From a virus, in the IMG/VR virus record IMGVR_UViG_3300043409_000028, positions 1 to 21,856 of that record: a stretch of DNA of 21,856 bases; one strand, 5' to 3'. Of the stretch, positions 6,601 through 17,390 are shown one piece after another (the stretch's first letter is position 1; the number at the start of each line of letters is the position of its first letter). The notes beneath the pieces are model-generated. The model had not been told where the DNA came from. It ran no database searches and saw only the letters and a program-made list of their open reading frames with translations. The position numbers and the translations under genes were made by a program.

Positions 6601-6937
6601 TGTCTTGCGTAATACTTAAATCAGTAATGATTCCACCGACCCATGCTTCTCCGTAAACAATTGGAAGTTTGTTGTCTGTAGCTGGCGCTATTTGAGTTCT
6701 GTTACCGGGGTTTGGCGAGCTTCCTGAAAGTTCATTTGCGGATTGTTGTGAGCTTGCAAATGCTTTTGATATTATGGCAGACGCAACCATATTTATTGCA
6801 TAAGCAGTTACTAAAGCCCATCCAGTTAATGCCGCTCCAGCAGCAACTTCAAATATCGCAGCAGCAATAATTGACCCAACTGCAAAAGCAGGTGTTGCAA
6901 TCATCATCCCAAAAAGAATGGCACAAAGTTTAAACAT
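3611..6937 (-). CDS. Tail tip / central hub protein, J-like
   Basis: 1108 aa, the size of lambda J-like host-specificity proteins. The N-terminus is very hydrophobic: MFKLCAILFGMMIATPAFA looks like a signal peptide with an AFA site, followed by Ala/Ile-rich segments to residue 60. The region from LPIVYGEAWVGGII (91) through SRHKPGECFYDYLTNTVYGG and FRFDGLLDPTRSIMSNM to VITQKPTYTI is typical of the phage tail hub fold (PF13550 type). After residue 818 come beta-rich beads: FNVTRGTGYITDQCFVFENG (bead 1), an inserted GYNGTFTVTGATTSTVSY domain, FELLFINGTVVNEQDYD (bead 2) and FNLYQNGVLLRQGTDYT (bead 3). These probably project as a receptor-binding stalk. It overlaps the upstream GNAT gene (TAATG) and the downstream fibre gene (ATGA). 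Confidence 0.88.
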   Translation of the reverse strand: MFKLCAILFGMMIATPAFAVGSIIAAAIFEVAAGAALTGWALVTAYAINMVASAIISKAFASSQQSANELSGSSPNPGNRTQIAPATDNKLPIVYGEAWVGGIITDLSITQDNQTLYYVMALSEVTSYGSDTITFGDIYYGGKKVVFNATNQYSVDSLLDESTGESQIINGNIKIYKYSNGSNSQVNSSSSAIAVMSGAGLVYTWDGNKLMTNCAFAIIVLTYNQDQSITGLEQTRFQLTNSRHKPGECFYDYLTNTVYGGAIPATQIDTDSLDVLDAYCDETFTYVTYTGPSATQTRFRFDGLLDPTRSIMSNMQDMASCCDCLIKYNEIMGTWGVITQKPTYTIAMALDDSNMVSAISISPLDLASSYNVIECKFPDNSNQDAFNSSTFDLAQIDPTLLFPNEPVNKQSISLPLVNNSVRAQYLANRMLKAGREDLQVQVNTKFSGIQLEAGDIVTITSINYGWEAKEFRVNKVIDEFTEDGSVTAKLTVSEFNPAVYDDVSVTQFTPAPNTGIASPVVFGSVPAPVLAAQYPTAEIPSFMLALTASYVGIIQYAEVWYSAFANPTTGQLLFAGTTAIQSNGNPYTPNAPLPSVLLSDIPSGNWYFFSRMVNSLGASHYSSASAVFNWRPRTFQYTERYLSVAYADSLTGTGFDLDPRNHDYYGLYNQASETPSQTAADYTWYLADPTFGTTIYLCYSNRTTRRFSFATGFAAYAAGTGAFVPTQATIFDSTIWAALPDGTNFIDLDHATGQLLSTGTTSTTTGEIEVKNNPNGQVVASLKQFLNFGGPSQKTYSAAQITVDIYGRVVGFEAPDNFYITIQSFTATASQTVFNVTRGTGYITDQCFVFENGCLLDESEYTDASATVTLAVGATLNNTISVISFRSSTSILTTATSGTGSVATITFLERVAAPFTVGQSITVADVVPAGYNGTFTVTGATTSTVSYSNSTTGVQTTPGHVSGYYPSFSRTTANLTTATTYSPAPTSGFELLFINGTVVNEQDYDIVNSEITNFPNIVTGLLTMIQWSTNNLTVPNGNPANIIANTVIGQTLYPFSYDVDAFNLYQNGVLLRQGTDYTTATGTYSLTNAPTTITNILQQQTFARTGAA

Positions 6938-7368
6938 TACTGTATCCAGTTCTCATCCATCTTGGAAAAGCCAAATCTTGCGTAGTCAATCTGAGTGTTG
7001 GGCAGCTTTGATAAAGTAAAAAAAGCTATCCTGCCTGATTCTTTTAACTGCTTTCCATAATCAATGTAAGCATTTAGCAATCTATGCCCTGCTGTAGTGT
7101 TTCTAAACTCTGGTTTTACATACCAAGCAAGTTCGTGTAATGCGTAAATCTTGTCGCTCCAAATCGTCGGAAAAACTATCCCAGCTATCAACCCGATATT
7201 GTCTTTTATAAATATAATTCCTTGACCAGATAAAATGTTATCTATTAAACGGTGCCAATATTCTGATTCTTCTATGTCTTGGTATTGCTTAATCTGGCTT
7301 TCCGTCTTGAACATCAACATCAATTCTTTTATCTGATCTTTATCGTATTTTGTGGCTTGTCTTATCAC
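6937..7368 (-). CDS. GNAT-family N-acetyltransferase
   Basis: 143 aa, the length of a single GNAT domain. The order of elements fits: an N-terminal IRQATKYDKDQIKELM strand-helix opening, IFIKDNIGLIAGIVFP strands, LHELAWYVKPEFRN (strand 4), the acetyl-CoA-binding turn RNTTAG at 89-94 leading into helix HRLLNAYIDYGKQL, and a final FTLSK...YARFGFSKMDENW segment of the usual 'Y.k.GF' type. The turn is a slightly degenerate form of the R/Q-x-x-G-x-G/A motif (Thr in place of the first Gly). It overlaps genes on both sides (ATGA, TAATG) inside the tail tip cluster, so it is made together with structural proteins. The substrate is unknown; it may modify a tail or host protein. Confidence 0.82.
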   Translation of the reverse strand: MIRQATKYDKDQIKELMLMFKTESQIKQYQDIEESEYWHRLIDNILSGQGIIFIKDNIGLIAGIVFPTIWSDKIYALHELAWYVKPEFRNTTAGHRLLNAYIDYGKQLKESGRIAFFTLSKLPNTQIDYARFGFSKMDENWIQ

Positions 7369-11311: not shown

Positions 11312-11782
11312 TTATACCATTGGTGTTACATTTTTCATAAACGATTTTAATTGATGAGCCAATTGTTCTTTTAATATCTTGAACGCTTCTTCGGCTCCCG
11401 ATTCCATCGAAATTCTGAGATAAGGATGTGGACGAGTCCTTGCATTTCCAAATTCCTGCGACAAAGAAACGGCAGATTTTTTTACAGATACCATCCCCCA
11501 AATAACATCTCCCGGATAGTAAAACTGAGATTGTTTATCTGTTTCATTTGGCAGTCTTACAGTTATTTTTGCGGTTTCTCGCAAATGAATACCAGATGTG
11601 TTTGTGGTGGCGTCGTAAGGCGCATTAGCGATAACCCTCCCCAAGATTGGGCGCAATGCTTTGCGAACAGAATTAACCGTTCCTTTTTTTAGGACTTCTT
11701 CAGGGTTGTAAAAGGAAAACAAAACATCCATTTGTTCCGCGAGCCGGTCAAATCCTTTTACCTCAAAAGTTTTGTTCGCCAT
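11312..11782 (-). CDS. HK97 gp10-like neck/tail protein
   Basis: 156 aa. It has the layout of the HK97-gp10-like family (PF04883): FEVKGFDRLAEQM at the start, then the helix VNSVRKALRPILGRVIANAPYD, a THLRE-type element seen here as SGIHLRETAKITVR, then SLSQEFGNARTRPHPYLRIS and a C-terminal helix (EAFKILKEQLAHQLKSF). The HPYLR block matches the family's 'PFLRPA' region. Family members usually lie with the neck genes, before the tail tube. Here it lies between the GT chaperone and the tape measure, overlapping GT as TAATG. Its role is probably in the head-tail or tail structure, but the odd position leaves this open. Confidence 0.75.
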   Translation of the reverse strand: MANKTFEVKGFDRLAEQMDVLFSFYNPEEVLKKGTVNSVRKALRPILGRVIANAPYDATTNTSGIHLRETAKITVRLPNETDKQSQFYYPGDVIWGMVSVKKSAVSLSQEFGNARTRPHPYLRISMESGAEEAFKILKEQLAHQLKSFMKNVTPMV

Positions 11783-12575
11783 TAAAATACCTTTGGCGCA
11801 TTAGGGGACATTCTGGCAAACGCAAGCAATTTATTATTTGCCTCTGCCGCTTTTTCTTGTTCGGTTAATGGCGGGACAATGTATTCAAAGGTAGATGGAA
11901 GCACATCTTCCATCCTGTATGACTTTGCGTCTTTTCTTAATTTAGAATTGAGATTTCCGGTAGTTAAAGAACTAAGCGCAATCAAATTTGCTTTGTTTCC
12001 TAACATACCATCGTTAAGCATAATCTCAATATTCCTCATGTCATCCGTTGGTATTTTATCGGGATACCCACCATGAGCATAAATATATGCTCTAGTTTGT
12101 GCGCGAATATCCCCTATCAGTTTTTTCGTGCATCCTTATACCCAGGCTGGATGGATTCAGTAATCCTCTCCAACATTTCAAATTGAATAGCCATTGGGAA
12201 TTCAGCTTCGATGTCATCGTAAGTAATATCGCTAAAATCCCCAGACTCAGGAACTAGCAATTTAAAATACTCAAGAATTCTTTGTTCCATCTGGATTACT
12301 GATACGCACGTATTCCGTAGATTTATTGGTTTTCCGTCAATAACAACATCATCGTCAACAAACTCAACTCCAATTACCGCATCTTTTTTTACGGAATTAA
12401 CCATCTTGTTAAACTTTGCATCAACTTTTTCTTTAGAAACATCTTTAATCCGCTCTGAAATAGCTTCCATTTCCAAAGATAATGGTATCTTTACTTTAAA
12501 TTTATTGCCAATTACTTCAAAGGTTTTAATACGAATAGAATCGTTAATTTTTAACGCGGCGGAGAGTTTGCTCAT
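11782..12575 (-). CDS. Tail assembly chaperone GT fusion by -1 frameshift
   Basis: Predicted 264-aa product. The first 152 codons are those of G, ending in AAC at 12122-12120. The ribosome then slips back one base and reads CTG at 12120-12118 onward for 112 more codons to a TAA at 11784-11782. The T part begins LIGDIRAQTRAYIYAHGG and runs without a stop through YPDKIPTDDM and MEDVLPSTFEYIVPP to MSPNAPKVF. An ATG at 12039 lies inside this frame, but the 27 codons upstream of it also read as sensible protein and join exactly to the slip site, so a fusion explains the region better than a free gene. The T segment would contact the tail tube. The next gene begins one base inside the stop (TAATG). 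Confidence 0.85.
12061..12126 (-). promoter_or_regulatory. -1 frameshift site: slippery heptamer and nested RNA structure
   Basis: On the minus strand A AAA AAC (12126-12120) is in the correct X XXY YYZ phase for the G frame and is followed at once by TGA. After a six-base spacer (TGATAG), GGGATAT (12113-12107) can pair with GTATCCC (12067-12061), including one G-T wobble. Enclosed within it is a perfect hairpin, GAGCATA-TATT-TATGCTC (12092-12075). Heptamer, spacer length and downstream structure are the three known parts of a programmed -1 site. The heptamer and phase are directly visible; that the two-tier structure forms and stimulates slipping is inference. Confidence 0.85.
12117..12575 (-). 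CDS. Tail assembly chaperone G (unshifted product)
   Basis: 152 aa, the product made without frameshifting. In lambda-like phages the G protein and its GT fusion coat the tape measure and recruit tube subunits; neither stays in the virion. The sequence begins MSKLSAALKINDSIRIKTFEV, with a beta-type N-terminus including KFKVKIPLSLEMEAISERI, a long charged helix, and an acidic segment (SGDFSDITYDDIEAEFP). It ends at a TGA directly after a canonical slippery heptamer, so this stop is the switch point for the longer form. Position between tube and tape measure, plus the slippery site, make the call firm although no sequence family was searched. Confidence 0.82.
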   Translation of the reverse strand: MSKLSAALKINDSIRIKTFEVIGNKFKVKIPLSLEMEAISERIKDVSKEKVDAKFNKMVNSVKKDAVIGVEFVDDDVVIDGKPINLRNTCVSVIQMEQRILEYFKLLVPESGDFSDITYDDIEAEFPMAIQFEMLERITESIQPGYKDARKN

Positions 12576-12799
12576 TTTATGTCTACCTTTATTATTTTGT
12601 CGTATATAGCATCGTTTAGCCGTTTAGAGTAATCTGCCACTTCTTCAGGACTCATTTTATCCGCATGATATTTTGCAATCTCATACGCAATATTGATTCC
12701 AGCAATTTTTTGCTGAGGAAACCCAAACCAATTCTTTGTTCCAGAACTGGCTTGGGCTACCAAATAACCAAACAGGTCGTTATTATTTTGTATTGTCAT
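12572..12799 (-). CDS. Small protein of unknown function before the G chaperone
   Basis: A 75-aa protein I do not recognise. It is predicted largely helical, with KIAGINIAYEIAKYHADKMSPEEVADYSKRLNDAIYDKII as its core, and has no membrane segment or signal peptide. It starts 10 bases after the tail tube stop with no visible Shine-Dalgarno, and its TGA overlaps the G start as ATGA. It therefore sits inside the tube-chaperone-tape measure chain and is probably translated together with G. It could be an accessory tail assembly factor; nothing in the sequence shows this directly. Confidence 0.6.
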   Translation of the reverse strand: MTIQNNNDLFGYLVAQASSGTKNWFGFPQQKIAGINIAYEIAKYHADKMSPEEVADYSKRLNDAIYDKIIKVDIK

Positions 12800-14767: not shown

Positions 14768-16012
14768 TTATGCGTGGTAACAACGGACACCAGCAAAAAC
14801 ATCTCGGATTGTCGAACAAACTCGCTTCTCTGCGAACAGAGTTACATACCCCGGTTGCGTTTGATCGAACATTTGAATATCCATTGTTTCGTTGTCAGCA
14901 ATCGTCACAAACTGATCCCACGCAGCAAAATAAATCGCAAATTTACCGGCAGCAAGGTTGTCCATATAGGGATTTATTCGTACTGGTTTTCCCATCAAAT
15001 AGACTGTAGAACTTGTCCCATCTTCGCCAGCTTGGTCAAGAAATATTCCGGCATTAGCCGCTAGTTTTCTAATTACTGAAAGCGTTGCAGGAGTCATCAT
15101 CCAAGCGCATGTCGGGTCTAACAAATATTGCGGCGGGAGCGCTTCATAAATATCGGCCAAATCATTAACAACAACTGCGCTTGCACTTGCCAAAGTAAAA
15201 GTTAAAACGGTATGAATGCCGTTTGTCATTGCAATCCCGCTTGAACCAAATGCCGCCGCCGAAGTTGAAGTCGTATAGCTGTTCAATCCACGCAAACCCA
15301 ACGTGCCGCCGTAATAGCCGGTAGTCGATGCTGCTTGGTCATTGTTAAACATCATCGACAGAGCTTCTTGTTGAGCAAATTCTAGGGCAATGTCTCGCAC
15401 GATAGATTCTTCGAGATTATTAACGTCCGATAGCATTGCAGTCCGAATTGGCACAGACGCTTGAATTGATCTCAAAGGCAATTGCCAAATTGAAGTTGAA
15501 TAGCCCGTAGAACCGGCAGCATTATTGCTATTGATTGGATAGTAGCCCCACGGATTGCCTACAGCGGTAATTGTAGTTGATGTTGCAGTCGTATCGCCAA
15601 GCACGTTGTAAGTACCAGTTCCGCCAGTGCCGGTGCCTAGCGAACTAATGTAAGTGCCCGCGGCGACGCCAGTGCCGGAAAGGATTTGACCAACGCGCAA
15701 CGTGCCGCTAGTCACAGCCGAAACCGTCAACACCGAGGCAGCAATTGCACCAGTAACAACCGCCCCATTTTGGATATTGGTTGCATTACCAGTTTTAACT
15801 ACAAAGGTCTGGTCTGAACCGATTGTATTTACTACTCGCGCACCTGCGCCGCGGATAGGATTAAACATACGCAATGACGCGAAAGCATCATCGTAAATAT
15901 TTCTGCCGCCTATGCCAGAACCCGATCCGGTCAGCAAAGCAGCTTCTTTCAAGTTTACAGATGCTTTTCCATTTTTAAGCGCGGCTTTAATGGATTCCAG
16001 AATTAGGCTCAT
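14768..16012 (-). CDS. Second capsid protein, HK97-fold paralogue with inserted domain
   Basis: 414 aa, paralogous to capsid protein 1. Blocks align in order: NPIRG (51-55), [36 protein letters not shown], and [23 protein letters not shown] near the end. It differs in two ways. It has no delta-length N-terminus (only 50 residues before NPIRG, against 131). It also carries an extra segment at about residues 80-152, rich in Gly/Thr/Ser/Val ([15 protein letters not shown], then [12 protein letters not shown]), at the place where protein 1 has its short probable E-loop. The preferred start is the ATG giving MSLILESI, with GGA seven bases upstream; a TTG four codons earlier is less likely. It could be a minor or vertex subunit, a decorated major subunit, or a conditional alternative. 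Confidence 0.88.
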
Positions 16013-16030
16013 ATTAAATTCCAATAAATG

Positions 16031-16066
16031 TTAAAAAGAGGGGGGATTTCTCCCCCCGTCCTTTTT
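16031..16066 (-). terminator. Hairpin terminator between the two capsid genes
   Basis: Read on the minus strand, GGGGGGA-GAAA-TCCCCCC is a perfect 7-bp stem capped by a GNRA-type GAAA tetraloop and followed at once by TCTTTTT. An outer AAAAAG/CTTTTT pairing lengthens the stem and puts an A-tract before it, so it could also act on the other strand. It starts just after the capsid 1 stop and ends about 20 bases before the capsid 2 ATG. By sequence it is the strongest intrinsic terminator in the window. Placed inside a co-directional operon, it probably lets only part of the transcripts continue. Confidence 0.85.
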
Positions 16067-17390
16067 AGTCGTTTGCGTCTGCGGTGGAACGATACGCAAC
16101 AATTGCATTAGCATCGTGGATGCTTGATGCCACACGTTTTTCCCCGTAAAACGTAATGAAACCCGGCGCTGTTTGATCGTAGCGTCGCATAACCATGTTC
16201 AGCCGGTCAATGATAACGTGGCCTCGCGCCCAATCACCGAAGAAAATCGGATACAGGTTCGGTTTGTCTACACCAGCATAATTCGGCGTATCCACGTATT
16301 TATTAACGACCACATCGAAGCCAAGCAACTGGCCTACGATGCCATCAGCCCGCGCCAGACCATCCACATAGATCGGACGTCCATTGTCATCGACCAACCC
16401 CCGGATTGCTTGCAGCTCAATCGGGTTAATCAAAAACGCTGCGGAGTCAGTCCAGTATTGATTAGGCAGACTGTAGATCAAGTTGATAACATCGGCATAC
16501 GTTACATTGTTAGCAGTAGCGGAAGTGCCGTTTGTCGTAAGCTGATCGTAAGTAGCAATCTGCGACAAGCCGTTAGTAGTCGCAACGCCGCTGCTGCCGA
16601 GTATAACCGGATGCACAGTGCCGCCAGTGTAAGTACTGGTGTAAGCGTATTGATTCAAACCACGCAGACCATTCGTTCCACCGTAAGTGTCAGGCGAATC
16701 GGTTTGATCGTCGTTAAGAATCATTGATTGCGCTTCGACTTGGCTAAACTCAGCCAGCATGTCAGACACAATGTTGGACTCAAGACCATCAATGTCGTCC
16801 AGCGTTGCAGTACGCACCGGGAATTGACAGTTAAGATCACGCAGGATCATTTGCCAAATCAGCGTGTCTTGAGTAGTCGGGCCTCCGTTGTTTTGGATTG
16901 CATAGCCCCACTGAGCGCCAGCATTGCCGATCTTTTGACGCAGTTGGTAAGCAGAACCATCAGTTGATACGGTGCGCGAAACGCCACGCAACGGATTCGT
17001 CTGACGCAGCGCCACAAAAACCGGATCATAACCAGTGCGACCGCCGACGTTGTAACCCGAACCGTATCCGGCAGGATTACCCAGTTGCGAACCCGTTTCT
17101 TGCAGGTACGCATCATACTGGTCGGTAGATTCAAACATCTTGATTTCTTTTTCCGAGCGAGCATTGGATTTATAGAAATCGCGGAGTTGTTCTTTGACCG
17201 AGCGGTTAATTTCTTGGCTCAGAGTCTTAGCCGGTGGTTTGATAATCGCCGGAGCTTGCACTTCAGCAATTTTGGCTTCCAGAGCATTCAGCTTTTCAGT
17301 GAATTCATTTTTAACAGCTTCAACAGATTCCGTAATCTTGGCTGCATTTCCCGCTTCGATTGCGTCCAGCTTTTCGAGGATTTTTTCCAT
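16065..17390 (-). CDS. Major capsid protein 1, HK97 fold with delta-like N-terminus
   Basis: Predicted main shell subunit (441 aa). Residues 1-100 form a charged helical, coiled-coil-like segment (MEKILEKLDAIEAGN onward) of the kind that serves as the built-in scaffold (delta domain) of HK97 gp5 and is removed by the protease. The folded part starts near NPLRG (132-136). It continues through the probable E-loop (YQLRQKIGNAGAQWGY, 148-163), PVRTATLDDIDGLE, the YGGTNGLRGLNQY block and a C-terminal axial-domain stretch with RYDQTAPGFITFYGEKRV. The ATG has a strong Shine-Dalgarno (AAGGA, six-base spacer), one of the best in the window. A hairpin terminator follows its stop. It is a clear paralogue of the next gene. 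Confidence 0.92.
   Translation of the reverse strand: MEKILEKLDAIEAGNAAKITESVEAVKNEFTEKLNALEAKIAEVQAPAIIKPPAKTLSQEINRSVKEQLRDFYKSNARSEKEIKMFESTDQYDAYLQETGSQLGNPAGYGSGYNVGGRTGYDPVFVALRQTNPLRGVSRTVSTDGSAYQLRQKIGNAGAQWGYAIQNNGGPTTQDTLIWQMILRDLNCQFPVRTATLDDIDGLESNIVSDMLAEFSQVEAQSMILNDDQTDSPDTYGGTNGLRGLNQYAYTSTYTGGTVHPVILGSSGVATTNGLSQIATYDQLTTNGTSATANNVTYADVINLIYSLPNQYWTDSAAFLINPIELQAIRGLVDDNGRPIYVDGLARADGIVGQLLGFDVVVNKYVDTPNYAGVDKPNLYPIFFGDWARGHVIIDRLNMVMRRYDQTAPGFITFYGEKRVASSIHDANAIVAYRSTADAND

Follow-up and report, generated by a model that had tools for sequence, protein, structure and literature searches.

A predicted -1 ribosomal frameshift with a conserved 3' hairpin in tail chaperone-like genes of a mostly environmental phage group

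A -1 programmed ribosomal frameshift would yield both G and G-T tail assembly chaperones from one gene in a lake-type phage, a reading of its sequence and that of its relatives to which we give a probability of about 94%. The window analysed here is a 21,856-nt stretch, positions 1 to 21,856 of IMG/VR record IMGVR_UViG_3300043409_000028, whose source is described as a lake-type phage. About 190 distinct relatives share its arrangement of slip site and hairpin, and slipping very probably occurs in them too. The G/GT frameshift as such is known from other phages, while the hairpin and the exchange of slip sites within the group seem to be new; a search of the literature outside most subscription journals returned no paper describing a frameshift in these phages.

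Slip site and reading frames at the G/T junction

The frames and slip site at the junction are:

12117..12575, minus strand: G-like frame (0 frame), tail assembly chaperone-like, 152 aa; open reading frame with homologues in 325 loci
12120..12126, minus strand: slippery heptamer A_AAA_AAC, in phase with the G-like frame; window sequence and homologues
12117..12119, minus strand: 0-frame stop TGA, immediately 3' of the heptamer; window sequence
11782..12126, minus strand: T-like -1 frame, 112 codons past the slip codons, then a stop; would supply the C-terminal portion of the G-T fusion

The G-like frame ends on the minus strand as GCA CGA AAA AAC TGA. The first-pass annotation had placed an in-phase A_AAA_AAC right before the G stop, with an open frame of 112 codons reached by a one-base slip back, and both are confirmed: the heptamer occupies 12126-12120, and the -1 frame, whose new codons begin LIGDIRAQTRAYIYAHGG, stays open from the slip to a TAA at 11784-11782, predicting a G-T fusion of 264 aa. 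The 77-base gap after G and the apparent small gene with an ATG at 12039 are also as described there. We infer slipping at a rate that leaves the majority of ribosomes to terminate at TGA and release the 152-aa G-like protein. In the minority, a hairpin 6 nt downstream would hold the ribosome at the slip site, tRNA-Lys and tRNA-Asn on AAA_AAC would shift one base back onto AAA_AAA, and translation would continue in the -1 frame to give the 264-aa fusion. Analogy with lambda suggests that the G part would coat the tape measure protein, the T part would recruit the tube protein, and the ratio of G to G-T would matter for tail assembly.

Scans of IMG/VR with G, T and their profiles recovered a G homologue at 325 loci, of which 191 are distinct around the junction and form the set used for the slip-site counts; among contigs assigned to bacterial or archaeal genome bins, only two match T. 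Every one of the 191 has a T homologue in the -1 frame relative to G and a 0-frame stop immediately 3' of the slip site or one codon later. A canonical X_XXY_YYZ heptamer is present in 151 (A_AAA_AAC in 103, G_GGA_AAC in 45, T_TTA_AAG in 2 and A_AAA_AAT in 1), and the remaining 40, all from one clade, carry (NTC)A_AAG or A_AAA adjoining the stop. The earlier expectation that homologues would conserve both frames and the heptamer holds for the frames; for the heptamer it needs refining, as these 40 loci lack a canonical one.

Slip-site type follows clade. The window's clade (102 distinct loci) has A_AAA_AAC in 100, with G_GGA_AAC and A_AAA_AAT once each; a second clade (47 distinct loci) has G_GGA_AAC in 44 and A_AAA_AAC in 3; and the clade of Methylophilaceae phage P19250A (42) has T_TTA_AAG in 2 and NTC followed by A_AAG (A_AAA in one case) adjoining the stop in 40. 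The swap from A_AAA_AAC to G_GGA_AAC involves an AAA to GGA codon change and replaces residue K by G while retaining the slippery pattern, which argues that the motif is conserved for slipping and not for the peptide. The slip-site arrangement is not due to chance, and codon choice is far from background: with representatives counted as independent, 34 of 36 have an A-ending R codon ahead of the site, where codon usage predicts about 28%, and 39 of 40 use AAC as the N codon of the site, for which 44-49% is expected.

The downstream hairpin

A conserved 3' hairpin, absent from the first-pass annotation, is part of the predicted frameshift signal. Its arms, and a candidate upstream element, are:

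12103..12113, minus strand: outer stem 5' arm, GGGATATTCGC; pairing and covariation in 81 sequences, and folding
12061..12071, minus strand: outer stem 3' arm, GTGGGTATCCC; pairing and covariation, and folding
12086..12092, minus strand: inner stem 5' arm, GAGCATA; 90.7% of cells paired
12075..12081, minus strand: inner stem 3' arm, TATGCTC; pairing with the GAGCATA arm
12133..12137, minus strand: AAGGA, resembling a Shine-Dalgarno sequence and lying 6 nt before the slip site; a weak, putative element

The hairpin begins 6 nt past the heptamer in the window, the spacer being 5-6 nt across clades, and the inner stem is shifted in some relatives. Among 40 representatives, the 60 nt right after the heptamer have a mean folding z of -5.71 (s.e. 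0.26), and the remaining windows from -180 to +240 range from +0.4 to -1.9. The window's own hairpin reaches -23.9 kcal/mol (z -4.47), a value equalled by 0 of 200 shuffles. With synonymous shuffles, which preserved the T protein together with its codons, z averaged -3.35 and the native sequence was better than all 100 shuffles in 27 of the 40.

Pairing is maintained by linked substitutions. Over the whole hairpin in 81 sequences, 94.9% of cells are paired and 8 pairs show double changes, with 103 double-change cells against a shuffled mean of 28 and at most 55 when slid. The outer stem alone has 62 double-change cells, with 97.5% of its cells paired and compensatory changes at 6 of its 11 pairs. 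In the two distant clades a 12-bp stem occupies this position; 98% of its cells are paired, and its linked changes include G-C to A-U. No other stretch of the region is as stable as the hairpin in any of the three clades, and its mean z values in the distant two are -3.95 and -3.72. An Rfam search returned no match for the region. Upstream, 27 of 40 representatives have AAG as the K codon, compared with about 41% in the gene (P about 6e-4, relatedness uncorrected). A_AAA_AAC is a weaker slip site than A_AAA_AAG in E. coli (PMC5009743), which counts against the frameshift model, though the strong hairpin may compensate for this.

P19250A is a cultured relative, the one found in the phage collection, and its genes 13 and 14 are homologous to G, at 38% identity, and to T. 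It retains the 3' stem (z -2.88), but the slip site reads TCA_AAG_TAG where the window has the canonical A_AAA_AAC, and the lack of a canonical heptamer in this phage (clade C) counts against the frameshift model. It is conceivable, at somewhat less than even odds, that the tandem heptamer was lost in this clade and that a single lysyl-tRNA slips from AAG to AAA beside the stop, driven by the retained hairpin; A_AAG is a minimal -1 site, used by IS1222 (PMC5009743). If so, slipping in one gene would span a natural series, from a two-tRNA form to a termination-coupled form with one tRNA.

Start of the T frame and alternative readings

The T frame aligns from codon 1 or 2 in all 87 loci aligned, and over codons 3-29 the differences per position (0.204, 0.169 and 0.53) are of coding type, highest at the third. 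The first ATG of the window's T frame is codon 30, and the conserved protein extends upstream of any ATG. No start codon is common to the T frames of the homologues: most members of the window's clade have the codon-30 ATG, which one locus (L040) lacks, and a codon-14 ATG of the other two clades is missing from several members. It is thus very improbable that T is a separate gene with its own start (the ATG at 12039 or a similar one), perhaps reached by reinitiation after the G stop, with the overlap incidental. Such a start would fit the codon-30 ATG of the window's clade and the annotation of P19250A, in which G and T are two separate hypothetical proteins and the T-like gene runs from an internal ATG. 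However, codons 1-29 are conserved as protein before any ATG, the putative start is missing from the members named above, and a separate start leaves the conservation of slip site and hairpin unexplained. A minor internal T start may exist besides the fusion. The first-pass annotation had named homologues with a conserved T start and a lost heptamer as evidence against frameshifting; the search for them did not refute the claim, the slip motif being kept or replaced by a slippery one.

Fusion could also arise if RNA polymerase slipped on the A run to give mRNAs with an inserted or deleted A, a reading for which the six-A run at the window's slip site speaks. Yet the run is short, the homologous G_GGA_AAC and TCA_AAG sites have no comparable A run, and a 3' hairpin spaced 6 nt from the site is arranged like a ribosomal stimulator, making this route still more improbable. 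A sequencing error or decayed gene has a negligible probability: one metagenomic contig by itself could contain an indel, but 191 distinct loci, drawn from many samples, and the genome of a cultured phage all have the identical frame relation, which refutes this reading.

Tail-module context and comparison with known systems

The genes run from tube through a small ORF, G and T to tape measure. The tape measure gene, downstream, matches Pfam PF06791 and PF09718, and homologues of the upstream 174-aa protein, the putative tube, match a PHROG major tail protein family, which bears out the earlier placement of both genes between tail tube and tape measure. G and T had nothing significant against Pfam, PHROGs, NCBIfam or PDB sequences, and 38 members searched against Pfam gave 0 matches, with one PHROG chaperone match (E 0.028) below significance. 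The AlphaFold model of G (pLDDT 84.6) matches the HK97 tail assembly chaperone 2OB9 moderately, with Z 5.7 over 100 residues (Foldseek E 0.6); the tool warns that a Z under 8 may come from a widespread arrangement, so this likeness is support for chaperone identity and not proof. Only 5IR0 (Vibrio ORF19) scored above 2OB9, at Z 6.1, and was left uninterpreted; the next unrelated entry had Z 3.5. The T model is all-helical and of low confidence (pLDDT 69). The earlier label of lambda-like G and T is supported by position and predicted fold, but neither gene showed sequence homology to lambda G or T. A weak G match in Faecalimonas and Blautia phages was rejected, as it lies outside a tail module in the Faecalimonas record.

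Several neighbouring genes were recorded alongside. In the window's clade an HK97-gp10/Neck1-like gene (11312-11782, minus strand; PHROG 5, E 2e-5) separates T from tape measure, but in many loci of the two other clades it is found upstream of G, so that gene order around the G-T unit is swapped between clades. A conserved 75-codon gene of unassigned function (12572-12799, minus strand) overlaps the start of G and is present in 300 of the 325 loci. A GNAT acetyltransferase gene (6937-7368, minus strand) sits among the tail genes. Two tandem HK97-fold capsid genes (14768-16024 and 16065-17390, minus strand), both PF05065, are 39% identical over about 280 residues, the first with an insert-like stretch matching tail-fibre and unknown PHROGs. 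A long repetitive protein with repeated units, probably a tail fibre, is cut by the contig end (2-2263, minus strand).

In the G/GT systems of tailed phages the second frame is -1, rarely +1, and lies between the tube and tape measure genes. The locus described here likewise has its second frame in -1 between the putative tube and tape measure genes, with a conserved in-phase slippery site in the overlap (canonical in 151 of 191). Lambda shares the overlapping frames at this position with T in -1, the slip heptamer towards the end of G, and a small G with a longer G-T, and its chaperone roles and need for a balanced ratio are established (PMC5009743). It differs in its G_GGA_AAG slip site (A_AAA_AAC here), in lacking a 0-frame stop right after the slip, in a G with no detectable sequence similarity, and in having no 3' hairpin (z 0.94) where a strong covarying one is found here. 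HK97 gp13/gp14, for which a -1 frameshift is annotated, resembles this locus in the predicted fold of G, with 13% identity in the structural alignment with 2OB9, but has no marked 3' structure (z -0.89) and no extra HK97-gp10-type gene between T and tape measure. In reporters, frameshifting at HK97-like chaperone sites amounted to 6-7% (PMC3711429). The same fold calculation gave z values of -0.25 and -1.48 for the P2 and N15 G-T sites, so that across these four phages a strong 3' hairpin is not general at classical G-T sites.

The dnaX site is A_AAA_AAG, and the shift there meets an early stop and gives a shorter product, whereas the shift here would lengthen the protein. In the E. coli dnaX signal an A-run heptamer is followed by a stem-loop of about 11 bp and preceded by a Shine-Dalgarno-like element (PMC5009743, PMC3711429). 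The A-run heptamer and a downstream stem-loop are also present here, the latter covariation-supported and within the 5-9 nt past the slip site typical of dnaX-like signals, while the Shine-Dalgarno-like element is weak and stands at 6 nt compared with about 10 nt in that class.

The frameshift would add a large, mostly environmental phage group to the users of G/GT frameshifting, with chaperones invisible to family models, and suggests that a frameshift signal alone can annotate tail chaperones where sequence similarity fails. Three slip-site types combined with one conserved hairpin form a natural comparative set, in which one can ask how slip site and stimulator strength balance to hold the protein ratio. 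Compared with the known systems, the locus is distinctive in its dnaX-reminiscent covarying stem-loop, its clade-wise turnover of slip sites, with a possible one-tRNA type among them, and a putative chaperone outside current family models.
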